Shown: positions 23,688-63,356 of the stretch, piece by piece
Numbering within the stretch: position 1 is the stretch's first letter
How the letters are laid out: each line of letters opens with the position of its first letter
DNA from: Mycobacterium sp. SMC-2
GTDB lineage: Bacteria > Actinomycetota > Actinomycetes > Mycobacteriales > Mycobacteriaceae
Direction: 5' to 3'
Length of the DNA stretch: 64,000 bases
Assembly: GCF_025263485.1 (NCBI RefSeq)
Contig: NZ_CP079863.1
Coordinates: 5,914,570-5,978,569 of the forward strand
Notes under the pieces: model-generated
What the model was told of the DNA's origin: nothing
The model's input: only the letters and a program-made list of their open reading frames with translations
Database searches by the model: none
Translations under genes and position numbers: made by a program

Positions 23688-23763
23688 GCCCCTATAGCTC
23701 AGTTGGTAGAGCTACGGACTTTTAATCCGCAGGTCCCAGGTTCGAGTCCTGGTGGGGGCACCA
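23688..23763 (+). tRNA. tRNA-Lys (anticodon TTT)
   Basis: The plus strand gives acceptor GCCCCTA/TGGGGGC (one T-G pair), anticodon loop CTTTTAA with TTT, T-loop TTCGAGT and an encoded CCA. It is divergent from the Glu-Asp-Phe series. Its 3' half is the prophage junction, and the repressor gene on the other strand ends inside it. Confidence 0.96.
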
Positions 23764-24050
23764 GCCGCACCGCCGTCGTCACCGTCGCCGGGGAACAGCT
23801 CGACTTCGGGCATGAGGTCTTCGGGTCGCACTCCTAGCCATGCGGCCGTCACGGCGATGTCGATCGCCGACCATTCCGTCTTGCCTCGGAGTCGATCCGA
23901 CACTGATCCCTGGCCCACTTCGAGGATCGCGGCGAGCTGCTTTTGCGTACGGCCGGCGCGCCACATCAACGTGTGCACCCGTTCTCCAATCAAGCTGGTC
24001 GCCCGCTTCTTCGGGTCGACCTCGGTAGTAACCGTGATGCTCATAGGCAT
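23712..24050 (-). CDS. Cro/C1-type HTH immunity repressor, 3' end inside tRNA-Lys
   Basis: 112 residues from ATG 24050 (ATG 24044 also possible; a TATAGT -10 at 24053-24058 suggests a near-leaderless message). The HTH spans about 28-65 (RTQKQLAAILEVGQGSVSDRLRG). The last 17 residues, GAPTRTRTWDLRIKSP and neighbours, are the antisense of tRNA-Lys, and the stop lies at tRNA position 25-27, beyond the probable crossover. Thus the integrated gene has a host-encoded C-terminus. In phages such as BPs, integration trims a degradation tag from the repressor in just this way. Confidence 0.75.
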   Translation of the reverse strand: MPMSITVTTEVDPKKRATSLIGERVHTLMWRAGRTQKQLAAILEVGQGSVSDRLRGKTEWSAIDIAVTAAWLGVRPEDLMPEVELFPGDGDDGGAAGAPTRTRTWDLRIKSP

Positions 24051-36776: not shown

Positions 36777-37136
36777 ATGGCGATTGATCCGATTCGGCCA
36801 GTGAAGCTTGGTCGCCGCGCGGCCGCGCTGTGGCGCGAGCTGGTGCGGCCCGAGACGCCGGTCGACACGAAGGTGCTCGTCGCTGAGGCGTGCCGGCTGA
36901 CGGATCGGCTCGACAAGTACGACCGGATCCTGCGGGCTGACCCGACTGATCCGGTGCGCAGCGAGGCCCGGCTGGCGGCGTCGGCGTTGCACCGGATCTT
37001 GAACGGCTTGTCGTACGAGACGCATGGAACGTCGGCCGGGACGCCGGCGGATCCTCCTGCGACCAGTAAGGCCACTACGATTGCTGACGAGATCGCGGCC
37101 CGCCGAGCCGCGCGGCAAGCAGACACCGCGGGTTAG
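36777..37136 (+). CDS. Terminase small subunit
   Basis: 119 residues from ATG 36777. It is helical and charged (AAALWRELVRPETPVDTKVLVAEACRLTDRLDKYDRIL), like small terminase subunits of actinophages, and overlaps the large subunit gene. It would recognise the packaging site and load the motor. Confidence 0.7.
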   Translation: MAIDPIRPVKLGRRAAALWRELVRPETPVDTKVLVAEACRLTDRLDKYDRILRADPTDPVRSEARLAASALHRILNGLSYETHGTSAGTPADPPATSKATTIADEIAARRAARQADTAG

Positions 37137-38637: not shown

Positions 38638-38665
38638 CCCGAAAATCGACCCAGGAGGGGATGTT

Positions 38666-40198
38666 TTGGCGCCTACATCGCGCAATGTCCCCGCCACAGC
38701 CCCGCTTAAACCTCCTGCGAAGCGTCTTCCGCGGCGCGTGGCGGGACTTAGGACTAAGACACCGGTCCCGATCACTGAAGCCGGATTCGCTAACCCGTTT
38801 CCCGGGATGCTGTCGGCGTTTTCGCAGTGGGACCAGTTCGAGCAGGTGCCGGAGCTGTTGTGGCCCAACAGTGTGCGCACCTACACGCGGATGTGGCGGG
38901 AGGACTCGCGGATCGCGAGCGTCTATTACGCGATCGCGTTGCCGATTCTGCTGACCGGGTGGCGGATCGACCAGAACGGGGCCTCTGATGAGGTCACCGA
39001 GTTCGTGGCGACCAACCTGGGGCTGCCGATCGCGGGCGCTGATGAGACGAAGCCCAAACAGCGCACCCGCGGCCGGTTTTCGTGGTCGAAGCACCTGAAG
39101 CTGGCGTTGCGGCATCTGCAGTTCGGGCACCAGGTGTTCGAGCAGGTGTACCGCATCGGCGATGACGGCCGCGCGCATCTGCGCAAGCTGGCCCCGCGGC
39201 CGTCGTCGACGATCGCCTACTGGGACGTGGCGCTTGACGGCGGCCTGGTGGGTATCACTCAGTTCCCGCCGGGCACGTCGTTCGGGGCGCCGATGGGCAT
39301 GACGCAGGGCGGCATGGCGGGGCTGCAACTGCAGATCCCCGTGTCCCGGCTCGTCGTGTACGTCCGCGACCCGGATCCGGGCCAGTGGATCGGCAACAGC
39401 CTGTTCCGGCCGGCCTACAAGCACTGGCTGCTCAAGGACCGGTTCATCAGGATCGAGGCCACGGCCGCCGAGCGTAACGGTGTCGGTGTTCCGGTCGTGA
39501 CCGCGCCGGATTCGGTGTCGGAGGCCAGCGTCGGCAGCGCGGATCTGCAGCCGTATCTGGACATTGCGCGCCAGTACCGCGGCGGAAACCACGCCGGTGT
39601 CGCGTTGCCCTACGGCACGCTGTTCGAGCTGGCCGGCGTCAAGGGCAACCTGCCGTCGGGGTTTATCCGGCAGGCCGTGGAGTACCACGATAAGCAGATG
39701 GCGCTCGCCGCGTTGGCGCATTTCCTGAATCTGGACCGCGGCGGATCCTATGCACTCGCGTCGGTGCAGGCCGACACGTTCTCCGAGGGTGTGCAGCAGG
39801 TCGCCGAAGACATCCGCGACACCGCCCAGGCGCACATCGTCGAGGATCTGGTCGACATCAACTGGGGTGAGGATGAGCCGTGCCCGCGGTTGGTGTGCGA
39901 GGAGATCGGTTCTCGGCAGGACGCTTCGGCCGCGGCGCTGCAGATGCTGGTCAACGCCGGGCTGATCACCCCGGATCCGCAGCTCGAGGCGTTCGAGCGG
40001 CAGCAGATGGGCCTGCCAGCCGTCGACCCCGATCTGCAAGAGGCCAACGACCAGCAGTATCCGAAAGCGCCGACGGAGACCGAACCGATCCCGACCGCGC
40101 AACCCGCGCTGCCGTTCTCGTCGCGCGCGCGGGTTTCCGCGTCGGCTCGGCGGCGTCCGGTAACTATCCATCCCGAAGGGCAGATAACGCTGTGGTGA
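38666..40198 (+). CDS. Portal protein (DUF935/Mu gp29-like)
   Basis: 510 residues from TTG 38666, chosen because AGGAGGGG ends 5 bases upstream; the nearer ATG 38661 is out of frame. It has features of Mu gp29-type portals: YYAIALPILLTGWRID, FGHQVFEQVYRIGDDG, VYVRDPDPGQWIGNSLFRPAY, and the DRGGSYALASVQADTFSEGVQ wing. The dodecameric portal is the DNA gate and head-tail connector base. Confidence 0.85.
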   Translation: MAPTSRNVPATAPLKPPAKRLPRRVAGLRTKTPVPITEAGFANPFPGMLSAFSQWDQFEQVPELLWPNSVRTYTRMWREDSRIASVYYAIALPILLTGWRIDQNGASDEVTEFVATNLGLPIAGADETKPKQRTRGRFSWSKHLKLALRHLQFGHQVFEQVYRIGDDGRAHLRKLAPRPSSTIAYWDVALDGGLVGITQFPPGTSFGAPMGMTQGGMAGLQLQIPVSRLVVYVRDPDPGQWIGNSLFRPAYKHWLLKDRFIRIEATAAERNGVGVPVVTAPDSVSEASVGSADLQPYLDIARQYRGGNHAGVALPYGTLFELAGVKGNLPSGFIRQAVEYHDKQMALAALAHFLNLDRGGSYALASVQADTFSEGVQQVAEDIRDTAQAHIVEDLVDINWGEDEPCPRLVCEEIGSRQDASAAALQMLVNAGLITPDPQLEAFERQQMGLPAVDPDLQEANDQQYPKAPTETEPIPTAQPALPFSSRARVSASARRRPVTIHPEGQITLW

Positions 40199-40428
40199 AA
40201 ACCCTTGTGGTGGGCGCGACCCTTCCGGGCGCCCGTGAACTTTCCGACCAGCTGGGCGTGCCGGACGCCTACGTGAGTTCGCCGCGGTCTTGCGGCGCGC
40301 GCGGCCTATCGGGTGTGCAGCGCGTGTTTGTCGATCGCGCAGTGATGACCGAGGACATGCTCGCCGAGCTGGCGCCGCTGGTCGCGTTCACAGGAGGCCA
40401 AATGTTCGCCGTATCAAGGATTCTCTGA
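40195..40428 (+). CDS. Hypothetical protein between portal and protease
   Basis: 77 residues from GTG 40195, overlapping the portal stop, and with its stop overlapping the protease start (TGATG). It is compact and alpha/beta (TLVVGATLPGARELSDQLG). Role unknown. Confidence 0.6.
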   Translation: MKTLVVGATLPGARELSDQLGVPDAYVSSPRSCGARGLSGVQRVFVDRAVMTEDMLAELAPLVAFTGGQMFAVSRIL

Positions 40429-41756
40429 TGGTCAATCTCGTAACGGTGCCCGGCATCGAGCTGATGCGCACCGGCAAGTGGGACCTGTCGACAGGCGAGT
40501 GGGAATGCACCGCCAAGGAGATCGCCGCCGCGATCGACGCCCACGACAAGGGGCTGCTACGTAAGCCTGTGATCCGGTTGGGGCACAACGACCCCCGATT
40601 CAGCGGCGATCCCGCTGTCGGATGGTTGGACAACCTGCGGGCATCCGAGGACGGCCAGGCGCTGATCGGTGACATGGTCGGCGTTCCTGAGTGGCTGGCA
40701 GAGATCCTGCCGTCCGCTTACCCGTCCCGGTCGATCGAAGGGCTCTACGACTACACCGCCCCGGATGGCAGCGAGCACGACTTTGTGCTCACCGGCCTGG
40801 CGCTGCTGGGCGCCACGCGGCCGGGCGTGGAGTCGCTGCAGAGCCTGCAGGACGTGGCCAGGTTGTACGACATCGCCGCGGCCGCCCAGGTCGGCGGCAA
40901 AGCGATCGAGCTGACCGTCGAAGCCGCCACCTACCGGGACCGCACCACAGCGAAAGAGCCCTGGGGCGACGTGGATTACGCCGACCCCGGTTTTCTCGAC
41001 GAGAACGACCAGCCGGCCGAGCCCGGGCACGGCGTCAAGCGGTACCCGTTGAACGACCGCGATCACGTCAAAAGCGCGTGGGACTTCATCAACGAGAAGG
41101 CCAACGCGAAGCTCTACACCCCGACTCAGTTGGCGCACATCCGAAGTGCGATCGAGTCGGCGGCCAAGAAGTTCGGAATCACCATTGAAGCCGCCTCGGC
41201 TTCCGAAACAGAAGGAGGGGCCGTCGTGGCTCTACCCGAGAAGGTCGCGGAAGCGCTCGGTATCGACGCATCCGCCGACGAGGACGCCGTGCTGGCCAAG
41301 ATCGCAGAGCTGACGCCCGCGGCCGCCCCAGAAACCGCACCTGCGGCTGCGTCGGTCGCCGCTGCGGCTGCGGGCGTGGTCAACGGCCTCGTGCAGATCG
41401 AGCAGGCGCAGCTCGACGAGCTGAAAGCCGCGGCAGCCCAAGGTGTCGAGGCCCGCGCACGTCAGATCGCCGAAGACGACGAGCGCACCGTCATGGCCGC
41501 CATCAGTCAGGGCAAGATCGCCCCGGCCCGCAAGGATCACTGGCTGGCCGCGCTCAAGGCCGACCGCGACGGCACCAAGCAGGTGCTGGCTTCGCTGGCC
41601 GCCGGGCTGATCCCGGTCGCCGAAGTCGGCCACCAGGGCGTCGCCGGCCACGTCAGCGCCGAGGGCGCACCCGACTCCGAGCAGCAGGCCAAGGAATACG
41701 CCAACGCGCGGATCATGGCCGCACTCGGCATCCCCACCACGAAAGAGAGCAACTGA
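40428..41756 (+). CDS. Capsid maturation protease with scaffold C-terminus
   Basis: 442 residues from ATG 40428. The N-terminal half resembles Mu I-like prohead proteases (RKPVIRLGHNDPRFSGDPAVGWL, LPSAYPSRSIEGLYDY). A middle YPLNDRDHVKSAWDFINEKANAKLYTPTQLAHIRSAIESAAKKFGI segment is a DUF6582-like unit. The C-terminal 175 residues are Ala/Glu-rich and helical, scaffold-like, with their own internal start at 41226. Confidence 0.8.
   Translation: MVNLVTVPGIELMRTGKWDLSTGEWECTAKEIAAAIDAHDKGLLRKPVIRLGHNDPRFSGDPAVGWLDNLRASEDGQALIGDMVGVPEWLAEILPSAYPSRSIEGLYDYTAPDGSEHDFVLTGLALLGATRPGVESLQSLQDVARLYDIAAAAQVGGKAIELTVEAATYRDRTTAKEPWGDVDYADPGFLDENDQPAEPGHGVKRYPLNDRDHVKSAWDFINEKANAKLYTPTQLAHIRSAIESAAKKFGITIEAASASETEGGAVVALPEKVAEALGIDASADEDAVLAKIAELTPAAAPETAPAAASVAAAAAGVVNGLVQIEQAQLDELKAAAAQGVEARARQIAEDDERTVMAAISQGKIAPARKDHWLAALKADRDGTKQVLASLAAGLIPVAEVGHQGVAGHVSAEGAPDSEQQAKEYANARIMAALGIPTTKESN
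41226..41756 (+). CDS. In-frame nested scaffold protein
   Basis: Inside the protease gene, GAAGGAGGGG (41211-41220) precedes an in-frame GTG at 41226 by 5 bases, a better ribosome site than most in the window. The product of 176 residues is the helical, Ala/Glu-rich C-terminus only. This is the lambda C/Nu3 and Mu I/Z arrangement, in which scaffold is made from an internal start. Confidence 0.6.
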   Translation: MALPEKVAEALGIDASADEDAVLAKIAELTPAAAPETAPAAASVAAAAAGVVNGLVQIEQAQLDELKAAAAQGVEARARQIAEDDERTVMAAISQGKIAPARKDHWLAALKADRDGTKQVLASLAAGLIPVAEVGHQGVAGHVSAEGAPDSEQQAKEYANARIMAALGIPTTKESN

Positions 41757-41757
41757 C

Positions 41758-42156
41758 ATGGCTGGACAGGACTACGTCCCCCTTGCGACCTCCGGCATTC
41801 AGTGGTCCTGCGTCGCTGGCGCGGCGATCACCGCGGGCCAGCTGGTCGAGATCACGGCCGGCTCACTGTCCGGCGGCGGGGTGAATCCGACCGTGGCGCC
41901 GACGTCGGCCGCGACGTCGGCTGAGGTCGGTGTCGCCGCGAACACCGTGGCATCCGGGCAGCCGGTGAGCGTGTACTTCGGCGGGCTGCATGTGTTGGCC
42001 GCCAGCGGAGCGATCACTGCCGGTGATCCTGTGGTGGCTGCCGCCGCCGGTGCTGTCGCTGACCTCGGCGCCGGCACCACCTACGACCAGGTCGTCGGCA
42101 AGGCGTGGAGCGCCGCAGCCAACAACCTGGTCGCGGTGCGACTCGGAGAGATCTAA
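41758..42156 (+). CDS. Capsid decoration protein (DUF2190-like)
   Basis: 132 residues from ATG 41758. Small beta-rich, Ala/Gly/Val-rich protein (AGAAITAGQLVEITAG, HVLAASGAITAGDPVVAA), as in DUF2190 head-decoration proteins, placed directly before the major capsid gene. It would stabilise the expanded shell. Confidence 0.75.
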   Translation: MAGQDYVPLATSGIQWSCVAGAAITAGQLVEITAGSLSGGGVNPTVAPTSAATSAEVGVAANTVASGQPVSVYFGGLHVLAASGAITAGDPVVAAAAGAVADLGAGTTYDQVVGKAWSAAANNLVAVRLGEI

Positions 42157-42191
42157 CCGCCAGCAAGCCACACGCACCCCGGGCCAGCAGG

Positions 42192-42214
42192 TTCGGGGTT
42201 TATTTGACCCCGAA
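42192..42214 (+). terminator. Hairpin before capsid gene
   Basis: TTCGGGGT (42192-42199) and ACCCCGAA (42207-42214) form an 8-bp stem with a 7-nt loop between the decoration and capsid genes. No T tract follows. It could attenuate transcription or stabilise the capsid message. Confidence 0.4.
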
Positions 42215-42258
42215 ACCAGCTGCGCCGCAGCATCGTTCATAGAAAGGGTTAGGTCGAG

Positions 42259-43293
42259 ATGCCTTTCCTTCAGCCTCCTGGCTTTCCCACCGGAAACCTT
42301 GCAACGCAAGACGTTTACTCGATCAGCCGGTACCTCAACGACCCGACGATGGTGTTGCGGGCGCTGCGGACCATCGCCGATCAGATCTTCATCGGCAACA
42401 AGATCCTGACCGGCCAGCTGTACACCAAAGACGGCGCGGCCATCTACGAGCAGATCGAGTCGATCTTTGCGGCCAACACCCCGCAAGCGGTGCAGCCGGG
42501 CGACGAGTACCCGCTGACCGCGGTGCCCACCGGCCCGGCGCAGATCGCCAACGTGCTCAAGTGGGGTATGGACACGATCATCACCGACGAGTCCATCTCC
42601 CGGCAGAACTTCGATGTGGTGTTGCGGGACTTCACCAAGCTGGTCAACAGCGTGTTCCAGTACATCGACTCGCTGATCATGTCGGCCGTCGTCTCCGCGA
42701 TCACCCTGACCGTGAACGCCGGCTCGGCGACCATCACCGGCGCCACCCCGTCCGGCGGCGCGAACTGGAACGGCTCGGGCACCAACGCGCCTCGCATCTT
42801 GCGGGACGTCATGTACGCCGAACAGCTGATGCGTTCGCTCAAGCAGGGCTACAACGCCAACACCGTGATCTGCGACTTGGAGACCTACGCGGCGGTCATG
42901 GGTGACCCCAACATCGCGCCCGCACTTCCCCGCGAGGACATGGGCCGCGGCGTCAACGACATGCCGATCATGGAAGGCATCAAAACCGGGCTGCAGACCC
43001 GGCTCCTGGGCAAGACATGGCTTGCGACTCCGAACCTGCCCAGCGGCGAGTTCGGGCCGTTCGCTGCGGTGCTCGACTCGACCGTGCTGGGCGCCATGCT
43101 CGACGAGGAGCTGCCCGCACCGGGCTATGTCGGCTCGCAGGATGACGGAAAGGCTGGCAGCGACGGCCGCTCGATGATTCAGTGCAAGACGATGCGCGAA
43201 GACAAGAACGACCGCTGGCGCATCCGGGCTCGCCGCAACACCGCGCCGATCATCATCGAGCCCAAGGCCATTGTGCAGATCGTGGGTGTCTGA
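42259..43293 (+). CDS. Major capsid protein
   Basis: 344 residues from ATG 42259, with AGAAAGGG upstream. Location after protease, scaffold and decoration genes, length, and a HK97-like profile (ADQIFIGNKILTG, YPLTAVPTGPAQIANVLKWGMDTIITDESI, WRIRARRNTAPIIIEPKAIVQIVG at the C-terminus) support the call. There is no obvious N-terminal delta domain, as scaffold is separate. Confidence 0.85.
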   Translation: MPFLQPPGFPTGNLATQDVYSISRYLNDPTMVLRALRTIADQIFIGNKILTGQLYTKDGAAIYEQIESIFAANTPQAVQPGDEYPLTAVPTGPAQIANVLKWGMDTIITDESISRQNFDVVLRDFTKLVNSVFQYIDSLIMSAVVSAITLTVNAGSATITGATPSGGANWNGSGTNAPRILRDVMYAEQLMRSLKQGYNANTVICDLETYAAVMGDPNIAPALPREDMGRGVNDMPIMEGIKTGLQTRLLGKTWLATPNLPSGEFGPFAAVLDSTVLGAMLDEELPAPGYVGSQDDGKAGSDGRSMIQCKTMREDKNDRWRIRARRNTAPIIIEPKAIVQIVGV

Positions 43294-47978: not shown

Positions 47979-50900
47979 GTGCCGGTTTATCTCGACGTCG
48001 AGTCACGGCTGGACCGCCGAGCCGTGGAGGCAACAGCCCGTGAGATCACCGCGATCTTCAACCGTCTCGGCGCCGACGTCTCCAAAGGCCTCGGCGGTTC
48101 GCTCGGTAAAGCGTTCGGCGCGTTAGACACCAGAGCTGCCCGCGCGGAGCTGGTGAACCTGGAGAATGCGTGGCGCCGCGCCGCCGACGTCGAAACCGAT
48201 GCTGCTCGCCGGATGGAAATGGCCGCGCGGCGCGCCTCGGAGGCGACCGCCAAGTACGGCCAGGATTCCGCGCGGGCGATGCAGGCCCAAGCGGTCGCCG
48301 CCAAGAGCCAACGCGACTACACCGACGCCCTGGTGGCCAACGAGGCCGCGCACAAAGCGCACACCAAATCCGTGCAAGACAGCGCCGCCGCAGCCACGGT
48401 AGCCGGGCGGGCGTGGAACGCCGTCGGGGTGGGCTCGCTGGCCGTGTTTACCGGCAGCGTTCTGGAAGCGACCAAGGCCGCCGGGAACTTCCAGCAGTCC
48501 CAACAGCGTCTGGTGTCCTCTGCCGGGGAGACAGCGGCCAACCTCAAGGTCGTCTCTGACGGCATCCTGCAGATGGCGGGCCAGGTCGGCTACTCCGCGC
48601 AGGAACTGTCCAAGGGCATGTACACCGTGGAAAAGGCCGGCTACCGCGGCGCCGACGGCGTCAACGTCCTGAAGTCGGCCGCGCAGCTCGCCAAGGCCGA
48701 AAACGCTGATCTCGGTGAGGTGCTCAACGGTCTGACGACCTCGATGCACGACTTCGGCTACGGCAGCGACCGGGCCGCCGAGGTGGCCTCGAAGATGAAC
48801 ACCGCTGTGGGTGAGGCCAAAACGAACCTGCAGGAGTTTTCCGGGGCGCTGCACTCGGTGGAGCCCATCGCCGCGGCGGCCGGCCTGAAACTCGAGGACG
48901 TGTACGGATCGCTGGCGCAGATCACCCAGTCGGGAACGTCGGCGGATCAGGGCGCGCAGAACATGGCGCACTCGATCTCGCAGCTGATGAAACCCACGCA
49001 GCAGATGCGCGACGAGATGGGCCAACTCGGCATCGATGCCCGCGACGTGCAGGCGCACCTAGGTGAGCGCGGCTTCGCCGGGACGGTGCAGTACCTGTCG
49101 GACACGATCCTCCAGCACATGAACCCGGCCGGCCAGGTCGTCATCGACACCATGTTCAAGTCCCAGCAGGCCACCGACGCGGCGAACCAGATTTTCAACA
49201 ACCTGCCCCCCGCGGCGAAAGCTGTCGCGCAGGCTATCAAAGACGGCACCTTGTCCTACAAGGAGTTCCGCAAGACCCGCGGCGGCCTGGACGTCGAGCA
49301 GGCCAACGAGATCAACCAGTGGAACAACCTCAACAATAAGGTCACTGGGTATTCGGCGGCGCTGAAGACCGGCCAGGGCGACATCCAAACCTACGAGCAG
49401 GCATTAGCGTTGATGACCGGCGGACAGGACTCGCTGCGCACCGTGCTGCAGCTGGTCGGAGACAACGCGCAAGCCACCAACGACAAAATCAAAGCCGTCC
49501 GCGACACCACCGCCGAAACCGATGGAACGGTCAAAGGTTTCAACGAAACCCAGCAGACGCTCAACGCCAAGATGGCCGACGCCAAAGCAGCGTTCGGCGC
49601 CGCCGCGATCGAGATCGGAAACGCCTTCGTCCCGTTCATGACCAGTGCAGCAAATGTCGCCAAGGATGTCGGCGATGCGATGGCCAAACATCCAGCCATC
49701 CTTCATGACGCCACGATCGCAGTTGGCGCACTCGGGGGAGCTTGGGCGACAATCAAACTCGCTAACATCGCAGGAACTATCCTCAGTCCGCTGATCAACG
49801 GTGTACGGACCCTCACCGTCGCGGAGGATGCGGCGGCCGCATCGGCTGGTGGCTTGCGCGGTGCACTGGGTGGGATCGCTGGTGCTGCTGGTCCCGTGAT
49901 CGGGACAGCGATCGCCGCTGACCAGTTGTCGAAGCAAGCCGAGGACAGCCACAACCCGGTGCTGCACTACCTGGGGGATGCATTCCGGCACAGCCCCGTG
50001 TCGGCCTACGGCCTGTACAACCTCGTCACCGGCCGCCACGCGGGAGGGGGCCCGTTGCGGGCGCCGGGGCCGAAAGGCCGCGACTCGGCGCTGTTCTGGG
50101 GCGCTGAAGGCGAGCATGTGCTGACCGCCGACGACGTCGACGCGATGGGCGGCCACGGCGCGGTGTATGCGTTCCGCAACGCGCTGCACCGCCAGTACGG
50201 TGGTGCGCTGGGCCCCGATGTGCAGGTCGCCGAATCCTTGGCGGGTATGAAGTACAGCCAGGGTGACCGCACGGACTGCTCGGGCATGGTCGGCCGCGTC
50301 ATCCTCGGAGCGATGGGCCTGCCGCCCACGAACCTGCCGACGACGCAGAACATGGGCCAGTGGCTCGCGGCGCTGGGTTTCCACCCCGGTATCGGCGGCC
50401 CGGGCAGCATTTCGGTCGGTTGGTACAACCACGGATCCTCTCCCAACGACGGCCACGCGGCCATGACCCTGTCCGACGGGGAGAACGCCGAATCCGGCGG
50501 CAGCCACGGCAATTTCCTCATCGGTTCGGGCGCGGCGGGCGCGGCGAGCGCGGAGTTCGACCATCACATGTTCCTGCCGACCGTGTACGGCGAAGGCGCC
50601 GCGACGGGAATGCCGGGCTTCGGCGGCGGCTTCGGCGGCATGGGTGGGGGTTTCGGTGGCGGCTTCGGTGGGGGCGGTGGCGGCATACCGGCGGGCGCGA
50701 CCCCGGAACAGGGCCCGGCGGCCAGGCCGGCTATTACACGGCCAACCCCGAGCGCGTCGCATCAGCGCAGGAATCGCTGCGCCACCTCAACGACGAGATC
50801 CACGACGCCGAGGAACGCAAGAAGAACCTCAAAGCCGACGCGTCGCAGGCCGAGAAGGATCGGCTCGATCACGAAATCCAGCATCTGTACCGTGAGCGCG

Positions 50901-52608
50901 ACTTGGCCCAAGAGCGGCTAGCCAGAGCTGAGCAAGGCACATTCCACGCGGCGCGCCGCGGCCGCGGCGGCATGGGCGGTAGCCCATTTCTGCCGGTGCC
51001 GCTTGCCGACAAGTTCGGGCTGTCCAAAGGGCTGCCCGGGCTAGCGGAATGGCTGGTCGGGTTCGCCGAGGACATGGTGTTGGGCCCGTTAGAGACCGCG
51101 GCGTGGAATGCGATCGGCCAAGCCCCGCCTGGCATGGGTGGCTTGGGCGGCTTGGGCTCCGGCGCTGGCCTAGGAATTCCCGGGCCGGGCCAGTTCGGAT
51201 TCGGCGCGCCGGGCGTCCCCGACGTGGGCGGCGCCGATATGGGTGCATCGTCGCGTGACAACGTTGCCGGACCGGCAGGCGGCGGCGCTGGTACGGCTCC
51301 GGCCGCGTCCACGACAACACCCAGCTCGTGGAATGACCAGTTCTGGACCACGAAGCCGAAGAGTCCCGCGACGCCCCCGCCACCGGCAGCACCGCCCTCT
51401 TCGGCGGATTACGCAAGCTGGTATCCCGCTTCCGGGTTCTACAAGGGCTGGTACCCGCGTCCCCTTGGGCCGGTACCGCCCCCTCTCCCAATGCATACGG
51501 GCCGCCGTCCCACGGGTCGGATTGGCGCTGGGGCCCCTCACACGTAGCGCCGCCTGGGCCGCGTGGCCCCATGAGAAGCCCTGCGGAGCAGCAACAGTCG
51601 ATGCTGGGCGGCGCGGGCAGCGGAGGCCCGGCGCCCGGTCGGCTAAAGCCGCTTCCTATGGGTCCATTCGTAGGCGGCGATCCGCGTTGGAATCCAGCGA
51701 TGCATTTCGCCGCGGGTGGGCCGTCTGGTACGGACACGATCCCGGCGTGGTTGTCGCCGGGTGAGTTCGTTGAGCCGACGTCGGCGGTCAGCAGATACGG
51801 GCGTCCGTTCATGGACGCTATTCGCCAGGGCCGAATCGACCCGTCATCGGTGCGATACTTCGCCCCTGGCGGTGAGGTCGATCCACCCCCACCACCGCCG
51901 CAGCCGCAGCCGCAGCCGCAGCCCAAGCCGCCGAAGAACACGCCGCCGCCGATGTCGGCTCAGCCGGGCGATATCCACGACGGGTTGAAGCCCACAGGGC
52001 CGGGCGCGGTAAGTCCTGGCTCGAAGAGAGCCGCCTCAGACCTCGCCACCCCGGGCGCGGACGCTCAGCAGCCCGGCACGGGGTTGCCGTCGATGCCCGG
52101 TATCGGCTTCTCCGGCGGCCTCATCGGCGGCATCGAGGGCGCGGCAAGTTCGGCCGCGGCGATGGGTGCGGACATGGGCACCTTCGGCGGCGCGGGCGGT
52201 GCTGTCTCAGCGGCCATGAATATCGGCTTCCAAGAGCTCAACCGGGCTGCCGCGTTCGGCGCCCAGGCCGCCGGTATCGGCGTCGAGGGCCTCCTTGAAG
52301 GTTTGATCCCGGACGCGGGCGGCAGCGGCGCGGACTGGGCGAAAACCATTCCCGGCCGGCTGTTGATGGGTGTGACGGGTGTGCGCCCGGCCGCGTCGCA
52401 GAACACCGCCGGGCAGACCCAGCAGCCATTCGCCTCGAATGCTTCAGACGACAAGTTCGCCAACCCTGCCGGGAACGTCTCGCAGCCGCCGCCGATCCAG
52501 ATCCTCGGCCCGGTGCACATTCAGGCCAACAACACCGACCAGATTCACTCGGAGATCAACCAGCAGACGTCGATGGCGGCCAACAGGTTCGGGGCGGCCC
52601 AGCGGTGA
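47979..52608 (+). CDS. Tape measure protein with NlpC/P60-like domain, two single-base breaks
   Basis: The first frame (GTG 47979 to 50921) holds the PhageMin-Tail-like domain (GILQMAGQVGYSAQELSKGMYTVEKAGYRG, about 190-400), membrane-like helices (about 590-660), and a peptidase-like domain with Cys767 in TDCSGMV and His near 825 in DGHAAM. The sequence continues in the next frame after 50717 (GGQAGYYTANPERVASAQES), and in a third after the C5 run at 51479-51483 (SPNAYGPPSHGSDWRW) to 52608. One base at each point gives about 1543 residues, setting tail length. The tail peptidase motif would help cell-wall entry. Confidence 0.8.
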
Positions 52609-55409: not shown

Positions 55410-55936
55410 TCAACGCCACTCTGGAGTGGCTGATCGACGCCATCACCATCGCGCTCGGGGTCACAGGTGTCCCAAATAGCCTGCTAGACGGGCTGTTTGA
55501 CAATGTGCTGTTCGCGTTCAGCGTCGCCGAGAACTACCAGGCCCGCGCCGCCGCCGGCCCCTACATGTTCGCCGAGAAGTTTTTCCCGTCCGGTGAAGGC
55601 GCGCTGTCGATCGACACCCTGTTTTCGGAGAAGGCGGCGCTGTGGAACATTCGTGGATACCCGTCAGGGAAAATCACGTTCATCGACAACGAGCCCTTCG
55701 CTGTCGGGCGTGAAATCTTCCGCGGAATCCTGGTGTTCTACATCCGCCGTGGCCGCCTCTATATCGACTACGTCGATGACATCGACATCAAAGACTCACG
55801 CACCGAACGTAATCGGGTCACGTTGCAGATCGGTGACGGCAAATCCGAGGAGTCCGCGCCGGTGAAGGTGCAACGCAAGATCGCGGGGTTCGAGACCCTG
55901 TTCAACATCATTCTTTCCGGAGGCAACCTGTCGTGA
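55394..55936 (+). CDS. Minor tail protein (Gp37-like), C-terminal part
   Basis: The frame is open and coding-like from TGG 55394 (WINDLINATLEWLIDAITIALGVTGVPNSLLDGLFD) to 55936, with no start codon or ribosome site at its head; GTG 55505 is only an internal possibility. The sequence is the natural continuation of the 54159 protein (SPK then WINDLINA in related phages). The joined protein would be about 575 residues. It overlaps the next gene by 4 bp. Confidence 0.65.
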   Translation, partial: WINDLINATLEWLIDAITIALGVTGVPNSLLDGLFDNVLFAFSVAENYQARAAAGPYMFAEKFFPSGEGALSIDTLFSEKAALWNIRGYPSGKITFIDNEPFAVGREIFRGILVFYIRRGRLYIDYVDDIDIKDSRTERNRVTLQIGDGKSEESAPVKVQRKIAGFETLFNIILSGGNLS

Positions 55937-56838
55937 CAAACCCTGAACTGTCTGTCAGCCCCGACGGGACGTCGATCACTTACAACGGCCGCGTCTATTA
56001 CGTTCCCGGTAACACGTGGAGCGTCAACCCGGACGGCTCGACCACCTTCAACGGGTCGGTGTGGTTCCCGGCCGGTTTCAACTCCGCGTCGGGTGCGGGG
56101 ATTGTGGTGTTCGGGCCCGGCGGCGGCCGAGCGACCTTTCCCGCGGTGGAACCAGGACCGCCCGGGCCTGCCACGCAGTTCTCGATCAAGCAGGTGCAGG
56201 TCGCTTACGGGACACCGTTGCCGGCCGTCAATCCTGCGGTCGTGCCGACCGCCTGGGATTCTAACGGTATCCCGACGGCGCTGAGTTTGACGTTCTACGT
56301 CAACGCGGGCCAGGACGGGGCACCCGGGCAGACCACGATCCCGCAGATCCTCGACGGGGTGACCGCGGCGGCGGGCATGATGATCGGCTGGGACGCCACC
56401 AACGGGGCGGCGCAGTGGCAGCAGATCCCGATGGGCGGCTGGCAGTACGCGACCGGGATCGTGGCCTCAGCGTCGAATACCAACAGCCAAAAGCAGATCG
56501 GTGCGATCCAGTTCGCCGCGCAGCCCTACGCGTGGTGGCCTGAGATCAAGGCCCAAGCCAACGTTGTCGGGGCGGTCGACACCCTGGTGGACCTGGTGGC
56601 CCGCGTCAACGGCACTGCGGGCGCGATCTGCGGCTACGGCTACGGCAACCCCGGCGCTGCGCCTGGCACGGTGACCGCGATCTCCTCGGGGCTCGGCCCG
56701 GGCAGCGACAACATCATCGCCGCGGGCCAGGCCGCCACGATCTATCTGTACGCCGAGAACCAGACCAGCTCGGCCAACGACTGGTCCACGACCGCCCGCT
56801 GCAGTTTCCAGGCGCGCCCGAACTTCGTGCCGCTATGA
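55933..56838 (+). CDS. Minor tail protein
   Basis: 301 residues from GTG 55933 (GTGA overlap). An N-terminal beta motif (SPDGTSITYNGRVYYVPGNTWSVNPDGSTTFNG), a collagen-like GPPGPAT stretch (about 76), and a C-terminal virion beta domain (WWPEIKAQANVVGAVDTLVDLVARVNG). Typical of actinophage tail-tip or fibre-associated proteins. Confidence 0.75.
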   Translation: MTNPELSVSPDGTSITYNGRVYYVPGNTWSVNPDGSTTFNGSVWFPAGFNSASGAGIVVFGPGGGRATFPAVEPGPPGPATQFSIKQVQVAYGTPLPAVNPAVVPTAWDSNGIPTALSLTFYVNAGQDGAPGQTTIPQILDGVTAAAGMMIGWDATNGAAQWQQIPMGGWQYATGIVASASNTNSQKQIGAIQFAAQPYAWWPEIKAQANVVGAVDTLVDLVARVNGTAGAICGYGYGNPGAAPGTVTAISSGLGPGSDNIIAAGQAATIYLYAENQTSSANDWSTTARCSFQARPNFVPL

Positions 56839-58418
56839 CGATCGATTATTCGTCGGCGACGTCGGACCCGCCGGCGATCACCCCGAATCCGGCGATCCAC
56901 AATGTTCCGGCCGCTGACTCGAGGTCGGTCACCCCGATGGGGATCATCGGCCGCGCGAACAACCTGTCGACCGGGACAGCGACCGGGGTCGCCGGGGCGC
57001 TGGTGGGCGGATTGTCATCCGGCACAGATCCGTTCGCCGCGTTAGCGTCGTTCGGCCAGTCAGCACTGGGCGCGATCGCCAACATCGCTGAACTGATCCT
57101 CAAAACCGGCGCCGCGGTCATCGACGACGTCGCTAACTTCATCGTGTCCGCGGTGCAGGGCGTGGCCAACATCATCGGCGCCATCATTCAGGGCCTCGGC
57201 GGCATCCTCGGCGGCACCGGCAGCGCCAGCGATGCGCAGCTCGTGTTGCAGGCGACCGCGCAGACCATCGCGGCCACCAACGCCCAGCTGCAGGCGATGC
57301 AGGCCGCCGACTCCGCCGACTCCAACAACGGCGTCAACGTGTTCATCAACTTCTCTAACGGGTCGCTGAGCGGGTTCACCGAGTCGTTCACCGGTGCTGC
57401 AACAGGATTGGTGATCAACAGCGCGGGCTACGCGCAGCTGGTCACCAGCGGCAACGGGGTCGGTTTGGCGCTGCACCCGACACCGACGAACACCGACGAC
57501 CAGATCGTGTCCGCGGTCTACTACAACGCCCCCGGAAGCTATAACTTCTTCAACCTCACCGAGGGGTCGGGCTATAACGTTCTGATCGGGCACTCGAACG
57601 CGGCGATGACCCGCTACGTGTACGCCGTGATCAGCCCGGTTCAGTACACCATTCGTAACGTGGTGGACGGCGTTGACACCGTGCTGGCGAACTGGCTGCC
57701 GGCCGAGCCGACTTTCTATGCGGGAGCGCAATACTCGCTGCTGTGCGGATTCGACGGCAACTCGAAACCGACCTACGACATCGTCGTTAACGGCGTCAGC
57801 ATTCTGCACTTCACCGATACGTCCGGGGTCACCAACACCGGCGCCGATTACCGGTATTGCGGGTTCGGGTTAGCGGAGTTCGCCGGCATGGTGCCCAGCC
57901 AGCAGGCGTCGTTCGGGTTCGTCGACGACGCGCCCGGCCCGGTCATCGGTGACATGTTCATGGTTCAAAACACCAACGCGACGGTGACCACGTTGGCTAA
58001 CAACATCGCTTGCGTGGTGGCACCTGCGAACTACTTTGGCACCGTCGCAGTGCAGACGTCGAACTACACCTATGACCCGGCGACGAACAAACTGACCGTC
58101 AACAAGTCGGCTATCTACACCGTGAGGATCACGACGCAGTGGGTGCCGAAAAACGGAGCCACATACGCCTATTTCGGTGCCGGTGTTTTCAAGAACGGGC
58201 TGCTCTACGACTTTGACGTCGACTGCATCACCTCGCCCGGCGCGCTGCCGTACTACATCGAAAAGGGTTCGGTGTTCATCGTTCAGCTCGACGCTGGTGA
58301 CTACATCCAGCCGGGGTTTGTGTCCTACAGCAACTCGGCGTCGTATGAAAACAGCATCGTCGGTAACGGGGACGCCCAGTTCATCTGCGCGATCGCCAAC
58401 ACCGGAACAGCTGGATAG
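56835..58418 (+). CDS. Large minor tail protein (tail fibre-like)
   Basis: 527 residues from ATG 56835 (ATGA overlap). A helical Ala/Ile-rich N-terminal segment (AELILKTGAAVIDDVANFIVSAVQGVANIIG, about 90-125) is followed by a lectin-like beta domain (FINFSNGSLSGFTESFTG to the FADYRYCGFGLAEF region) and a C1q/TNF-like C-terminus (GTVAVQTSNYTYDPATNKLTVNKSAIYTVRITTQWV). It probably contacts the host surface. Confidence 0.78.
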   Translation: MTIDYSSATSDPPAITPNPAIHNVPAADSRSVTPMGIIGRANNLSTGTATGVAGALVGGLSSGTDPFAALASFGQSALGAIANIAELILKTGAAVIDDVANFIVSAVQGVANIIGAIIQGLGGILGGTGSASDAQLVLQATAQTIAATNAQLQAMQAADSADSNNGVNVFINFSNGSLSGFTESFTGAATGLVINSAGYAQLVTSGNGVGLALHPTPTNTDDQIVSAVYYNAPGSYNFFNLTEGSGYNVLIGHSNAAMTRYVYAVISPVQYTIRNVVDGVDTVLANWLPAEPTFYAGAQYSLLCGFDGNSKPTYDIVVNGVSILHFTDTSGVTNTGADYRYCGFGLAEFAGMVPSQQASFGFVDDAPGPVIGDMFMVQNTNATVTTLANNIACVVAPANYFGTVAVQTSNYTYDPATNKLTVNKSAIYTVRITTQWVPKNGATYAYFGAGVFKNGLLYDFDVDCITSPGALPYYIEKGSVFIVQLDAGDYIQPGFVSYSNSASYENSIVGNGDAQFICAIANTGTAG

Positions 58419-58421
58419 CAC

Positions 58422-59272: not shown

Positions 59273-59273
59273 C

Positions 59274-61445
59274 ATGGCAGTCCTGTTCGACTCGTCGGCC
59301 AGCTCGCACGCGGACCTGACCACGCTGGGTTCTACGTCGCACACCCACAACGTCGGCGCCAGCGCACCTAACCGTGTCGCGCTTGCTGCGGTCTATTGGG
59401 CCGGCGCCCAAGACGCGTCCAGCGCGGCGTTCACCGTGACGTTCGGCGCCCAAACCATGACTGAAATCACCGACGGTGAAATCGGTTTCGCTAGCGACAC
59501 CTGCATGTTGAAGTTCTACGAACTCGTCGACCCGCCGACCGGGCCGCAGACGGTGCAGGCCGCCCTGGACACCAACCTGGGGGCCGGCACCCTGTCGCTG
59601 GCATCGGCCGCCTATTCCGGGGTGGCCGAGGTCGGCGACGCGGTCACCGCCACCGGACAGGTCGGCGCGGCGAACCTCATTGTTCCCTCAGCGACCGCCG
59701 CCATGTTCTTCAACGCCTTCTCCTGCAAGCCTGCTGTCGCCGGGGCCCGCCTCGATGAGATCCTGCCGCCGTCGGGGCTGACGGTCACCCCGTCCACGAC
59801 TGGCGGCACATTCGCGGCTGGCGACTACTACTGGGTTGTTACAGCGGTCGACGCGGCGGGCGAGACGGTCGCCTCCAACGAGGTGCACGCCACCCTCACC
59901 GGCTCCACCTCGTCGGCGGCGCTCGCATGGACGCTGCCGCTGGGCGCGACGGCGACCAAGATCTACCGCGGCGCCACAGCGGGCGGTGAAGACGTCCTCG
60001 TGGCCACAGTCTCCTCCGGTTCGACCTACACCGACACCGGGGGCGCCGGGACCGCGGCGACACCGCCGGTCACCAACACCGCGGCCGGGATCTACAACCA
60101 GACCGTGCGCGCCAGCATGGCTGGCACGTCGTCGATCAACCCGCTACTCATCGGTGATGCCGACGGCGCCGGGAGCGTCGAGTTCGCCACCACCGCCCCG
60201 GTCGACAGCACCGACCAGTGGGCGGGCATCGGTGTCGGGCTGATCGGGCAGGGCGTGGCTTTCGATGCCGTGGGTGCCGGAGATTCCGGGTTGGGCAGCA
60301 CCCGGTCGTGGTCTCATGACATCGCCGGCAACTGCGTGCTGGTGGCGGCCAGCGTCGCCGGGTTGCCGTCGGGTGCGAGCTTGGCCGCCCAAGTCGGCAC
60401 TACTGCGATGACACCGCTGGGGGTGGCCGGCGATTACGCCTACACGACCACCAAAACGACCTATAGCGAGCAAGAGGTCGAACTGATCCTGTTCATCTTC
60501 GTGTTCATCTGGTTCACCCGTGTGGCGACGACGACCACGGTCTACTCCTATTCGCCGTCGCTGTTCCTGTTCGGGCTCATCGGCGGACCGACCGGCACCC
60601 AGACCATCGAGCTGAACAGCTCAGCACCGGCGAACATCGCGGCGAACTCGGCGTCCTACGCCAACGTTTCGGGCTTCGATACCGCGGTGGCCAACGGCTC
60701 CTACGTCAGCCCGGTGACGGTGGAGTCGACGGTGCCGGCCGCGCGTGTGGTGTCGGTGCACGCGATCGAACCGCAAGCCAACACCTTCACCTACGAGTCC
60801 TCGGAAAACCTCGCTGCCGCACCCACGCTGACGTCCGTGGCGGCCAACGAACTCACCCAGGCCAAACGCGCCGTGGTGTCCACTACCGCAGCTGAGCAGA
60901 TCCTGCTGCTCGGCGACGGGCCCGGGGACTTCAGTGTCACACCGGTAGCGTTGATGACTTCCAACGGCACCACCCCGACCAACACCCCGAACTGGGGTGT
61001 GGTGGGCGTCAATCTGTCCCCGGCCGTGGTGCAGATCGGGGCGTCGCAGCCGGTCGAATTCTTCGGAGCGGCGGCCGCGATCACCGACTACCGCTCGCAT
61101 GTGCCCTCGCCGATGCGCACCTGGGTTGTGCCAGCCACGGTTGCCACCGCCGCAACCTACGGGCTGCCCGCCCAGCAGTGGGCGCAAGCCGTCGACTCGG
61201 TGCTCGACTACACACTGGACTGGACGCAATACCTGGCCGGCACCGGCGACACCATCGTGGCGGCCAAGTTCGTGCCCTTCGACTCCACCGTCAGCGTGGT
61301 GGCGACCAGTGTCACCGACACGCTGTGCACCGGTTGGCTCACCGGCGGCATCAGCAACCTGTCAGTCCCGGTGAGGGTGCATATCACCACCCTGTATGGG
61401 CGCCAAGACGATCGGTCGTTCGCGCTCGTCATCACCCCCACATGA
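59274..61445 (+). CDS. Large minor tail protein with fibre-adaptor C-terminus
   Basis: 723 residues from ATG 59274. Repeated beta domains: an N-terminal Ig-like unit, a fibronectin-like unit (GTFAAGDYYWVVTAVDAAGETVASNEVHATL, about 170-250), a middle domain with a hydrophobic VELILFIFVFIWFTRVATTT segment, and a C-terminal fibre-tail adaptor-like part (LDYTLDWTQYLAGTGDTIVAAKFVPF, about 640-720). A tail-tip protein that may carry host-binding fibres. Confidence 0.75.
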   Translation: MAVLFDSSASSHADLTTLGSTSHTHNVGASAPNRVALAAVYWAGAQDASSAAFTVTFGAQTMTEITDGEIGFASDTCMLKFYELVDPPTGPQTVQAALDTNLGAGTLSLASAAYSGVAEVGDAVTATGQVGAANLIVPSATAAMFFNAFSCKPAVAGARLDEILPPSGLTVTPSTTGGTFAAGDYYWVVTAVDAAGETVASNEVHATLTGSTSSAALAWTLPLGATATKIYRGATAGGEDVLVATVSSGSTYTDTGGAGTAATPPVTNTAAGIYNQTVRASMAGTSSINPLLIGDADGAGSVEFATTAPVDSTDQWAGIGVGLIGQGVAFDAVGAGDSGLGSTRSWSHDIAGNCVLVAASVAGLPSGASLAAQVGTTAMTPLGVAGDYAYTTTKTTYSEQEVELILFIFVFIWFTRVATTTTVYSYSPSLFLFGLIGGPTGTQTIELNSSAPANIAANSASYANVSGFDTAVANGSYVSPVTVESTVPAARVVSVHAIEPQANTFTYESSENLAAAPTLTSVAANELTQAKRAVVSTTAAEQILLLGDGPGDFSVTPVALMTSNGTTPTNTPNWGVVGVNLSPAVVQIGASQPVEFFGAAAAITDYRSHVPSPMRTWVVPATVATAATYGLPAQQWAQAVDSVLDYTLDWTQYLAGTGDTIVAAKFVPFDSTVSVVATSVTDTLCTGWLTGGISNLSVPVRVHITTLYGRQDDRSFALVITPT

Positions 61446-61448
61446 CCG

Positions 61449-62501
61449 ATGGACTTTTGGTGGCTGCCGCCCGAGATCAACTCGGCCCGCATCTACACCG
61501 GGGCGGGCAGCTGCCCGCTCATGATGGCCGCAACCTGGTGGGACCATCTAGCGTCGGAGCTGACAGCTACAGCCGTGTCGTGGCGCTGCATAACGGCCGC
61601 CGTCTGTGCCGTATGGACTGGTCCTTCCTCGATCGCGATGCTGAGCGCGTCGACCTCGTATGCGTCCTGGCTGGCCTCCACAGCCGTCCAGGCCGAGCGG
61701 ACCGCTAGCCAAGCACGCTCGGCGGCAGCTGCTTTCGAGGCAGCTCGCGCGGCGAGCGTGCCGCCCCCGCTGGTGGCCGCCAACCGCGCCCAGCTGGCCG
61801 CCCTGGTCGCCACCAACCTGCTCGGCCAGAACACCGCGGCGATCATGGCGCTCGAGGCCGCCTACGCCGAAATGTGGGCCCAAGACGTCGCGGCGATGGC
61901 CGAATACCAGGCGGCGTCAGCGGCCGCCACCGGGGGCCTGCCGCAGTTCGACGCGGCGCCGCAAGTAACGAACGGCGGCCCGAGCACCCCGGGCAGCGGC
62001 AGCAGCAGCGGGGCGGCCGTGTCCGGTCTGCTCGGCAGCAGCCTGGGTGACCTGGCCAACCAGTACCTGCAGGCGTTCCTGTCGTCGGGTCCCTACGAGG
62101 TGCCGATCTCGCTGCTGTCGATGTTCAACGTCTTGTGGGCGGTCGCCTCACCCGCGAGCCCGATCACGCAGGCGCTCAACCGGTTATCGGCGGCGGCCGA
62201 AGCCAGCGTGACCTTCCCGCCGCAGACGCCGGCCACGCCCAGCGCGCCGCCCGCTGCCGCCTCCAGCGGGACTGCTGGGCGGCTCGGCCGGCTCTCGGCG
62301 CCGAGCTGGGCGACCCAACCCGATCGCCGCGACCAACCAGCCGCCGCCGCGGTGCGGGCACTGCCAGCCGAGCAGACAGCCATCGCGGTACCGCTGCCCG
62401 CGCCCATGCCCGGCGGCGGCACACCGCCCAAACAGCAACGGCCCCCACCCGAATACGGGGCGGTCGTCCGATTCGTACCCCGCCCACCGTCAGGAGGATA
62501 A
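61449..62501 (+). CDS. PPE-family protein encoded within the prophage
   Basis: 350 residues from ATG 61449. The N-terminal 170 residues are a PPE domain: MDFWWLPPEINSARIYTGAG with Pro7-Pro8-Glu9, helical pairs rich in Ala, and AAYAEMWAQDVAAMAEYQAA near 150. A Gly/Ser linker, a hydrophobic segment (NQYLQAFLSSGPYEVPISLLSMFN), and GRLSAPSWA near 285, a variant of the SVPxxW motif, follow. PPE proteins are exported by ESX type VII systems, usually with a PE partner; none is adjacent. It lies 3 bp after a minor tail gene in the same operon. Confidence 0.85.
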   Translation: MDFWWLPPEINSARIYTGAGSCPLMMAATWWDHLASELTATAVSWRCITAAVCAVWTGPSSIAMLSASTSYASWLASTAVQAERTASQARSAAAAFEAARAASVPPPLVAANRAQLAALVATNLLGQNTAAIMALEAAYAEMWAQDVAAMAEYQAASAAATGGLPQFDAAPQVTNGGPSTPGSGSSSGAAVSGLLGSSLGDLANQYLQAFLSSGPYEVPISLLSMFNVLWAVASPASPITQALNRLSAAAEASVTFPPQTPATPSAPPAAASSGTAGRLGRLSAPSWATQPDRRDQPAAAAVRALPAEQTAIAVPLPAPMPGGGTPPKQQRPPPEYGAVVRFVPRPPSGG

Positions 62502-62504
62502 AAG

Positions 62505-63356
62505 GTGAAATACAAGCGCGGACTCAAGCCCGTGGCCGTGCAGCCGGCCGTCCGGCTCGCCGACTACTACACCCCGGATCTGCCCAGCGTCGAGTCGCTG
62601 AAATTCCCGCTGGGACACAGCGATCTGATCCAACCGCAGATGTTCTGCAACGACCGCATCGGCGACTGCGCCATCGCGGGCAGCATCGAGGAAGTGCGGC
62701 TGGCCAACGCGCTGCGCGGCGTCACGGTCAACTTCACCGACCAAAGCGCCGTCGAGAACTACAGCGCGATCACCGGATACCAGCCGGGCCCCGAGCTTGA
62801 CGACCCCTACGCGCCGCCCAACCCCACCGACCAGGGCACCGACGTTCACGAACTCTACGACTACCGCAAGAACACCGGGCTGGTCGACGCCGACGGCAAC
62901 CGGCACACGATCGTCGCCTACGCCGGGCTGACCGTCGGCGACTTCGACGAGCTGCTCATCGCGCTGTCGCTGTTCCCCTCCGGTGTCGGCATCGGTATCC
63001 AGGTGCCCGACTACTGCGACGCGCAGTTCGAGGCCGGCCAAGCGTGGCACCTGGTGCCCGGCAGGCACGCGATCGAGGGTGGGCACTACATCCCGGTTGT
63101 GGATGCTGCCAGCCGCACCGAGGGCGGCCTGTTCACCTGGGGCGGCCACGGCGGCATCACCGCCCCGTTCTACCGCGCCTACAACACCGTCACCGCCGTC
63201 GCGCTCACCCAGGAGATGTTCACCGGCGACAAGAGCCCCACGGGCGTGGACTTCGAGCGGCTCGCCGCGGATCTGCAGCTGCTGAACACCGGCCCCGTGA
63301 TGGCCAAAGCGCCGCGGCGACGCAAGACCGAGGTCGACGATGCGCCGGCTGCTTAA
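62505..63356 (+). CDS. Papain/C39-like cysteine peptidase-type phage protein
   Basis: 283 residues from GTG 62505, with AGGAGG upstream. MFCNDRIGDCAIAGSIEE places Cys55 at the head of a helix, and EGGHYIPVVDA places His194 before a strand, the Cys-His layout of papain-like enzymes. Related proteins with NDxxGDC motifs occur after tail genes in many actinophages. A role in virion or host-protein cleavage is possible; activity is unproven. Confidence 0.65.
   Translation: MKYKRGLKPVAVQPAVRLADYYTPDLPSVESLKFPLGHSDLIQPQMFCNDRIGDCAIAGSIEEVRLANALRGVTVNFTDQSAVENYSAITGYQPGPELDDPYAPPNPTDQGTDVHELYDYRKNTGLVDADGNRHTIVAYAGLTVGDFDELLIALSLFPSGVGIGIQVPDYCDAQFEAGQAWHLVPGRHAIEGGHYIPVVDAASRTEGGLFTWGGHGGITAPFYRAYNTVTAVALTQEMFTGDKSPTGVDFERLAADLQLLNTGPVMAKAPRRRKTEVDDAPAA

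Follow-up and report, generated by a model that had tools for sequence, protein, structure and literature searches.

PPE-SVP proteins are described as substrates of the ESX-5 secretion system (PMC7028111), which is reported to be confined to slow growers (PMC4418733). In M. smegmatis carrying ESX-5, PPE proteins are found at the outer membrane and have been proposed to form channels in the mycomembrane (PMC10597459), and PPE51 is an ESX-5-secreted surface protein linked to nutrient uptake (PMC12607722). PE and PPE genes have also been recorded on predicted Mycolicibacterium plasmids (PMC8190616). The nearest precedent in a phage is MAV_0790, a PPE family protein of prophage phiMAV_1 in M. avium 104, for which a role in physiology and pathogenicity was suggested (Fan 2014, PMC3986857). 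Its gene has tail genes (from MAV_0795) on one side and lysis genes (MAV_0786, 0787) on the other, a position which fits the PPE slot described below. The available text of that article devotes one sentence to the protein, with no analysis of family, lineage, position or mechanism. No other report of a prophage PPE was found in the open-licence literature. In the accessible parts of the prophage survey PMC10654092, PE/PPE proteins are cited just for comparison with PEST proteins, and the accessible parts of PMC9934374 and PMC13056207 contain no phage PPE.

An example of phages encoding cargo for a type VII system of the host is provided by the PEST cassettes of M. abscessus prophages. These consist of WXG100, polymorphic toxin and immunity genes, are located near integration genes and, with one exception, are restricted to the M. 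abscessus-chelonae group (PMC10654092); the PPE gene studied here differs from them. With respect to gene position, Cor cassettes are comparable, which place an outer-membrane protein gene just 3' of tail-fibre genes in unrelated coliphages (PMC13164509). Envelope proteins encoded beside tail-fibre or receptor-binding genes are known from T1, HK022, N15, ES18, phi80 and T5; they act as exclusion factors against superinfecting phages and are considered to protect progeny against cell remnants (PMC13164509, PMC9586334). Cor and Llp (T1, N15, phi80, T5) are lipoproteins with no known sequence kinship to phage PPEs, and the likeness is one of place and kind. Their export route is Sec/Lol. Lambdoid late regions also contain genes for outer-membrane beta-barrels, lambda Lom and the Lc porin of PA-2, which are proteins of Gram-negative bacteria unrelated to PPE.

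The DNA analysed here, a stretch of 64,000 nt referred to as the window, contains a prophage extending from about 23.7 kb to past the right end. From left to right, its genes are arranged in the order repressor, exonuclease and RecT-like, terminase, portal, head protease, major head, major tail, tape-measure, minor tail, and PPE. The genome nearest to the window, G001, matched 25% of sampled 31-letter words. The left attachment site is probably located at 23688..24050, where a tRNA-Lys(TTT) gene detected by ARAGORN (23688-23763, plus strand) is overlapped by the phage repressor gene (23712-24050, minus strand; phrog_2328, E 9e-21); the right end lies outside the window. Searches for repeats and for a tRNA-end pattern yielded nothing useful for placing the attachment site. 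Integration-dependent immunity systems, in which the end of the repressor gene is set by integration, exist in some mycobacteriophages, and because of the overlap with the tRNA gene the end of the present repressor gene may be set in this way. Terminase, portal, head maturation protease, cement and major head genes were assigned by PHROGs and Pfam (37024..43293, plus strand). The tape-measure region (47979..52608, plus strand) is split over several ORFs, of which 47979-50921, 50360-51547 and 51571-52608 each match tape-measure families. This interruption may indicate a decayed or defective prophage, whose late operon may have ceased to serve a virion, or sequence errors at this place; the argument at the level of the PPE family is independent of it. 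Two minor tail genes of 301 and 527 aa follow (55933..58418, plus strand; phrog_732, phrog_746), and the gene directly upstream of the PPE gene is a tail gene of 723 aa (59274..61445, plus strand) matching phrog_553 (minor tail, E 2e-7), phrog_4137 and PF23148 (fibre-tail adaptor, E 7e-17). A second tyrosine integrase gene (21858-23249), beside tRNA-Phe/Asp/Glu, and a third integrase gene (3031-4122) belong to neighbouring integrated elements.

The phage-type PPE gene (61449..62501, plus strand) encodes 350 aa, comprising the PPE helical domain (residues 1-165) and a variable C-terminal part (166-350). The original prediction, made from the sequence and its reading frames, was that of an intact PPE gene, and this was borne out by a match to PF00823 over residues 2-161 (E 6.2e-56; 189 bits versus a cut-off of 26). 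The predicted PPE tripeptide is present at residues 7-9 (P7 P8 E9), the WxG motif as W56-T-G58, and MWAQDVAAMAEY at residues 142-153; in a 27-row alignment, the tripeptide and WxG are nearly invariant or invariant. An SxPxW-like C-terminal motif, also expected, was located at S283-x-P-x-W287, where the SVP position before xxW reads S-A-P-S-W in the window protein and SVP in several relatives. The PPE-SVP C-terminal model PF12484 remained below its cut-off (18 of 23 bits) and was, as a weak match, the only Pfam domain in the C-terminal part. No PHROG and no NCBIfam family matched the protein at E 0.01. A helical PPE fold is predicted by the structure model, in which block pLDDT values of the N-domain are 86-98 up to residue 170 and which matches PPE15, PPE41 and PPE4, with TM values by target length of 0.90 to PPE15 (5xfs_B) and 0.91 to 4w4k_B; pLDDT values for the C-terminal part are mostly under 60. 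With the ESX-5 PPE-SVP proteins PPE15, PPE18 and PPE51, the phage protein shares the PPE domain, WxG, a tip of apparent EspG5 type, SxPxW and a terminus of the type ..YG....RPP.GG. It differs in being encoded without a PE gene, in its length (326-369 aa in the phage copies read) and in the low PF12484 score. Furthermore, copies in the tail slot end with PEYG after a GTPxKQ stretch, whereas many host copies have RYG or QYG.

To determine the distribution of the gene, viral contigs and prophage loci (L numbers) were searched. With the gene following PPE in the window (the neighbour gene) alone as query, eight IMG/VR contigs were obtained. Six of them harbor PPE genes, all in the same slot as in the window (L003-L006, L008, L010), while L007 and L009 have the neighbour gene and no PPE; thus, PPE is dispensable. 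In L008, the PPE is truncated after about 112 residues and joined to a different reading frame. PPE queries added L011-L013 and L071-L076, of which L076 was left out of all counts for its host-like flanks and the absence of a late phage gene match in the stretch. L012, L071, and L075 have no match to late genes of the window besides PPE and were counted as phage on the basis of their IMG/VR listing and matches to lysin, integrase, SSB, RNA ligase or exonuclease genes. In total, 14 of 16 phage-like viral records contain PPE genes, one of them cut short, with eight of the 16 records having been retrieved by PPE itself. An assembly chimera, which would have invalidated the original prediction, was ruled out, since the identical arrangement is found in independent viral contigs and in an M. 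interjectum prophage.

The PPE gene is flanked by a late gene and by the neighbour gene in the window, L003-L006, L008, L010, L013, and L014, the upstream ORF not being a tail gene in L013 and L014. In L011, L012, L072, L073, and the M. branderi prophage L023, it is situated behind endolysin (phrog_3084, 317, 700 or 6707) and lysin-B-type (phrog_102) genes, and in L075 behind an endolysin gene. In a second M. branderi prophage, L024, as in L023, the distance from the neighbour gene to the PPE gene beyond it is about 3.7 kb. In L074, it is found between a phrog_19005 gene and an endolysin gene, and in L071 it adjoins an SSB gene of the early region, not a late gene. The M. interjectum prophage, locus L014, and the two M. 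branderi loci contain relatives of the tail genes of the window. Being present or absent (six of eight contigs), or differently placed at these other sites, among related phages, the PPE gene can with little doubt be regarded as an accessory gene owned by phages. A position inside the structural gene cluster had been considered odd; the gene is indeed located within the late genes, but at the end of the tail cluster, which is not unusual for an accessory gene. On the best reading, it belongs to a lineage kept by temperate mycobacterial phages, in most cases at the end of the late region that holds the tail and lysis genes. L023 and L024, which are related prophages with nearly identical PPEs, lie close to the two ends of a single contig of G142 (M. 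branderi), and the lysin-B-type gene of L023 is spread over two frames.

Bacterial genomes were also searched. A profile of the neighbour gene matched in six of 248 genomes of the genus, strongly in G001 (one place) and G142 (two places and a short third piece) and weakly in G173, G224, G237, and G251; no phage-type PPE was detected near the weak relatives in the stretches examined, which for G173 and G224 measured only 2-3 kb. The phage-type PPE itself was searched for with a full-length profile at E 1e-95, scoring the best five candidates per genome, so that misses are possible; three genes in two of 396 genomes were identified. All three are part of M. interjectum or M. branderi prophages and have phage tail genes or the neighbour gene next to them. 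The genome scan that led to the M. interjectum locus used two short patterns, and none of 76 loci was matched by a degenerate DNA pattern designed for the C-terminus of PPE. PPE relatives at 55-57% identity carry the names M. intracellulare, M. avium, and M. europaeum, the last being identical to the PPE of L003 over the part used for the tree. The hosts of the phage PPE lineage are presumably slow-growing, to judge by those with species names. The proposed search of phage databases yielded PPEs in IMG/VR contigs and none in 50,697 phage records, which were searched by tblastn with two different phage PPEs; the neighbour gene was likewise not matched there. As a positive control, 24 plasmid records were matched by one of the two queries. 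More than 2,200 mycobacteriophages have been sequenced, nearly all of them isolated on M. smegmatis (PMC10654092).

As originally noted, the PPE gene starts 3 bp behind the tail gene: TGA (61443-61445) is followed by CCG and the ATG start codon (61443..61451, plus strand). No Shine-Dalgarno sequence was seen before this ATG, so that translational coupling to the tail gene appears likely. Stop-start junctions of 3-4 bp are also present in L003, L004, L005, L006, L008, L010, and L014. L003 and L014 have TGA-GCG-ATG, and in L004, L005, L006, L008, and L010 TAA is followed by four bases and GTG. The coupled junction is kept though the upstream gene varies, which is the tail gene in the window and L003 and an ORF of 64 aa in L014. 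The strong ribosome site predicted for the gene behind PPE is AGGAGG at 62492..62497 (plus strand), located inside the last PPE codons; GGAGG is also contained in the PPE ends of L003, L013, and L074, ahead of a close downstream start. A simple sigma-70 scan of 58400-64000, which is a weak test for mycobacteria, found no promoter-like site versus 0.5 expected. Together with the apparent coupling, this result points to late expression of PPE.

Comparisons of the PPE genes revealed conserved and diverse parts. As a conservation score, the mean share of the commonest residue was calculated for 14 phage PPEs, not including L073 or L006, L008, and L010, which as near copies or cut genes were also kept out of the trees. 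Scores were highest for residues 113-146 (0.80), corresponding in our mapping to the EspG-binding stretch as described in PMC5311947, for 1-20 (0.79) and for 133-161 (0.76), and lower for helices 2 and 3 (0.53-0.65), residues 166-270 (0.47) and 271-350 (0.55). Twelve pairs of phage PPEs were compared for dN/dS, three of which were near-identical and uninformative. For the nine informative pairs, values were 0.19-0.47 in the N-domain and 0.35-0.90 in the C-terminal part, with synonymous sites near saturation in several pairs, demonstrating that the PPE domain is under purifying selection. In L004 and L005, the first 120 codons are identical; the two genes diverge thereafter and agree again at the end (0.13-0.63 in the mid-part, 0.96 in the last block), the middle part having been swapped. 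Between the window and L003, identity is 58% for PPE, 80% for the tail gene and 89% for the neighbour gene. L005, L006, and L010 are near copies in PPE. L004 and L006 have identical tail genes and PPE C-terminal parts at 0.67, while L005 and L006 have identical PPEs and tail genes at 0.55. PPE type and adjacent tail-gene type are therefore unlinked in these three contigs.

Phylogenetic trees were calculated with metagenome and host rows selected from longer lists. In a tree of 79 rows, the host label needs two changes, the exception being a PPE of M. heckeshornense that joins the PPEs of the M. branderi prophages; L074 is an outlier. In a tree of 110 rows with a broader choice of hosts, from which L074, L005, P0012, P0014, P0016, P0020, P0028, P0055, and P0082 were left out, all 13 phage PPEs are contained in one set of 48 rows (SH-aLRT 86). 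This set also holds 26 mostly metagenomic rows of unseen context and nine host rows, eight of which, on two long branches, may be misplaced. In this tree, 11 changes are required for the phage label, because the phage rows are interspersed with rows of unseen context. The simplest account of these sequences would be the origin of phage PPEs as one old branch from within the SVP-like group, rather than several separate captures of host PPEs by phages. A recent capture from the host chromosome was not accepted as the main account, because the phage PPEs cluster, with modest support, apart from most host PPEs. The idea of a captured host gene, put forward originally, thus holds for the distant past and not for a recent event, the trees containing one weakly supported phage lineage nested among host PPEs.

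The EspG-binding region of the window PPE has a mean identity of 76% to 31 SVP-type host PPEs, 53% to 11 MPTR-like and 47% to five PPE4-like (ESX-3) host PPEs, the labels SVP and MPTR-like being our own and the PPE4-like type having been checked for one of five. By this comparison, the region appears to be of ESX-5 type. Across the other phage rows, its SVP similarity ranges from 0.49 (L074) to 0.82. A search for a PE-like partner encoded elsewhere had also been suggested. PE was found in none of 16 and EspG in none of 11 viral records, many of which may be fragments; the PE model PF00934 is not perfectly clean, since it also matched in one control genome (E. coli). The host would therefore have to supply both, and three EspG genes each are present in G001 and G142. 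With PPE-domain and EspG surfaces kept and the parts behind them varying, the protein would most simply be an exported one with a variable outer part, and its export by ESX-5 is probable. Among the three options offered originally, transport through a host ESX system is the best supported, by conservation of the EspG region and SVP likeness. A toxin of the PEST type was not supported, since a WXG100 partner and a C-terminal toxin domain by Pfam are lacking. WXG100 exceeded the cut-off in none of 11 viral records, with weak matches below it in six, the one located being inside PPE itself, and was absent from 38 window proteins, representing part of the prophage ORFs, scanned with Pfam.

Taken as a whole, the data are best explained by an accessory PPE of temperate phages that would be exported by ESX-5 to the mycomembrane and alter the cell surface for the phage (probability about 0.45). 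The PPE would be translated late, coupled to the tail gene, pair with a host PE, be bound by host EspG5 and leave through the host ESX-5 to the mycomembrane. There it would most likely mask or change a phage receptor, by which superinfection would be blocked and progeny be kept off cell debris. It would work like Cor and Llp without being related to them, and by this analogy superinfection exclusion or progeny protection is put forward tentatively as its role. An exclusion protein matched to the receptor of its phage is weakened by the independence of PPE type and adjacent tail type in L004 and L006. That temperate phages of slow growers own a branch of mosaic, late, ESX-5-exported PPEs directed against both competing phages and progeny loss on debris is, as a complete statement, doubtful. 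Counter-points to the explanation by an exported accessory PPE are the PPE beside an SSB gene in L071, the lack of a PE in the phage records, and an SH-aLRT of only 86 for the clade. Alternatively, the PPE could be expressed in the lysogen to the benefit of the bacterium, as a nutrient channel in the mycomembrane or by changing the cell surface with respect to eukaryotic hosts. Expression in the lysogen is known for outer-membrane morons, lambda Lom among them, which set an example. Further support comes from PPE51 with its link to nutrient uptake (PMC12607722) and from the lysogenically expressed ESX-secreted toxins of M. abscessus prophages (PMC10654092). Lysogenic conversion, one of the original options, is nevertheless rather unlikely, given the negative, if weak, promoter scan of 58400-64000 and a start so close behind the tail gene that intergenic room is absent, both of which indicate late expression.

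It is improbable that the PPE is a virion part which contacts the mycomembrane from the tail tip at entry, as had also been considered. The distance of 3 bp to the tail gene would agree with such a function, as would a correlation between upstream-ORF and PPE C-part identity (Spearman 0.75), which was obtained from 28 non-independent pairs of eight related records, including L013 and L014 with non-tail upstream ORFs. But the PPE is missing in two of eight contigs with the neighbour gene, is unlinked to the tail type in L004, L005 and L006, is found behind lysis genes in other phages, and has the chaperone-binding tip, useless in a virion, among its best-kept parts. Equally improbable is a lysis helper, exported late to permeabilise the mycomembrane and ease release, since lysin B already acts on the mycomembrane, phages of the same kind manage without PPE (L007) and the diversity of the C-terminal part would be unexpected for a generic helper. 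The location behind endolysin genes in L011, L012, L072, L073, L075, and one M. branderi prophage is in favor of this function, and so is the proposal of PPE channels in the mycomembrane (PMC10597459). A host PPE acquired by chance and carried as an unused, decaying passenger could be suspected from the interrupted tape-measure gene of the window and the cut and fused PPE of L008; this is very improbable in view of PPE genes in 14 of 16 phage-like records (one cut short) and N-domain dN/dS values below 0.5 in all nine informative pairs.

PPE proteins are central to building the outer membrane of slow growers, and their spread is mainly told as host gene duplication; a PPE lineage that is maintained by phages and exchanges its C-terminal parts contributes a horizontal route. 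Phage PPEs also offer a handle on how phages protect or change the slow-grower mycomembrane, and on the variable C-termini of PPE proteins. If the surface-altering accessory PPE is real, it would represent a class of phage surface modification possible only where ESX-5 exists, which would explain its absence from the collection, mycobacteriophages being mostly isolated on M. smegmatis. M. smegmatis is without ESX-5, and collections made on it would miss this class, a point of relevance to phage isolation.

The neighbour gene (62505..63356, plus strand) starts 3 bp past the PPE stop and encodes a protein of 283 aa belonging to phrog_19005 (E 3e-88). Seven aligned relatives are 69-89% identical to the window copy. 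C55, H194, and W212 are invariant in this alignment and would fit a cysteine-peptidase-like fold. Its original designation as papain-like was not confirmed, since there was no Pfam match, the fold model had a pLDDT of 36, and a profile search against the PDB gave a single match at E 0.6 and thus no relative. A distant form of phrog_19005 also adjoins the PPE of L074. A gene that by eye looks PLD-like directly precedes the neighbour gene or its small companion in L007, L011, and L023, where PPE is placed behind lysis genes or missing. The PLD-like gene matches phrog_12711 (E 4e-5), a family with no function attached. In L008 (6847-7734), the N-terminal part of PPE is joined in frame to a PLD-like gene, again by eye, apparently as the result of a deletion in the slot.
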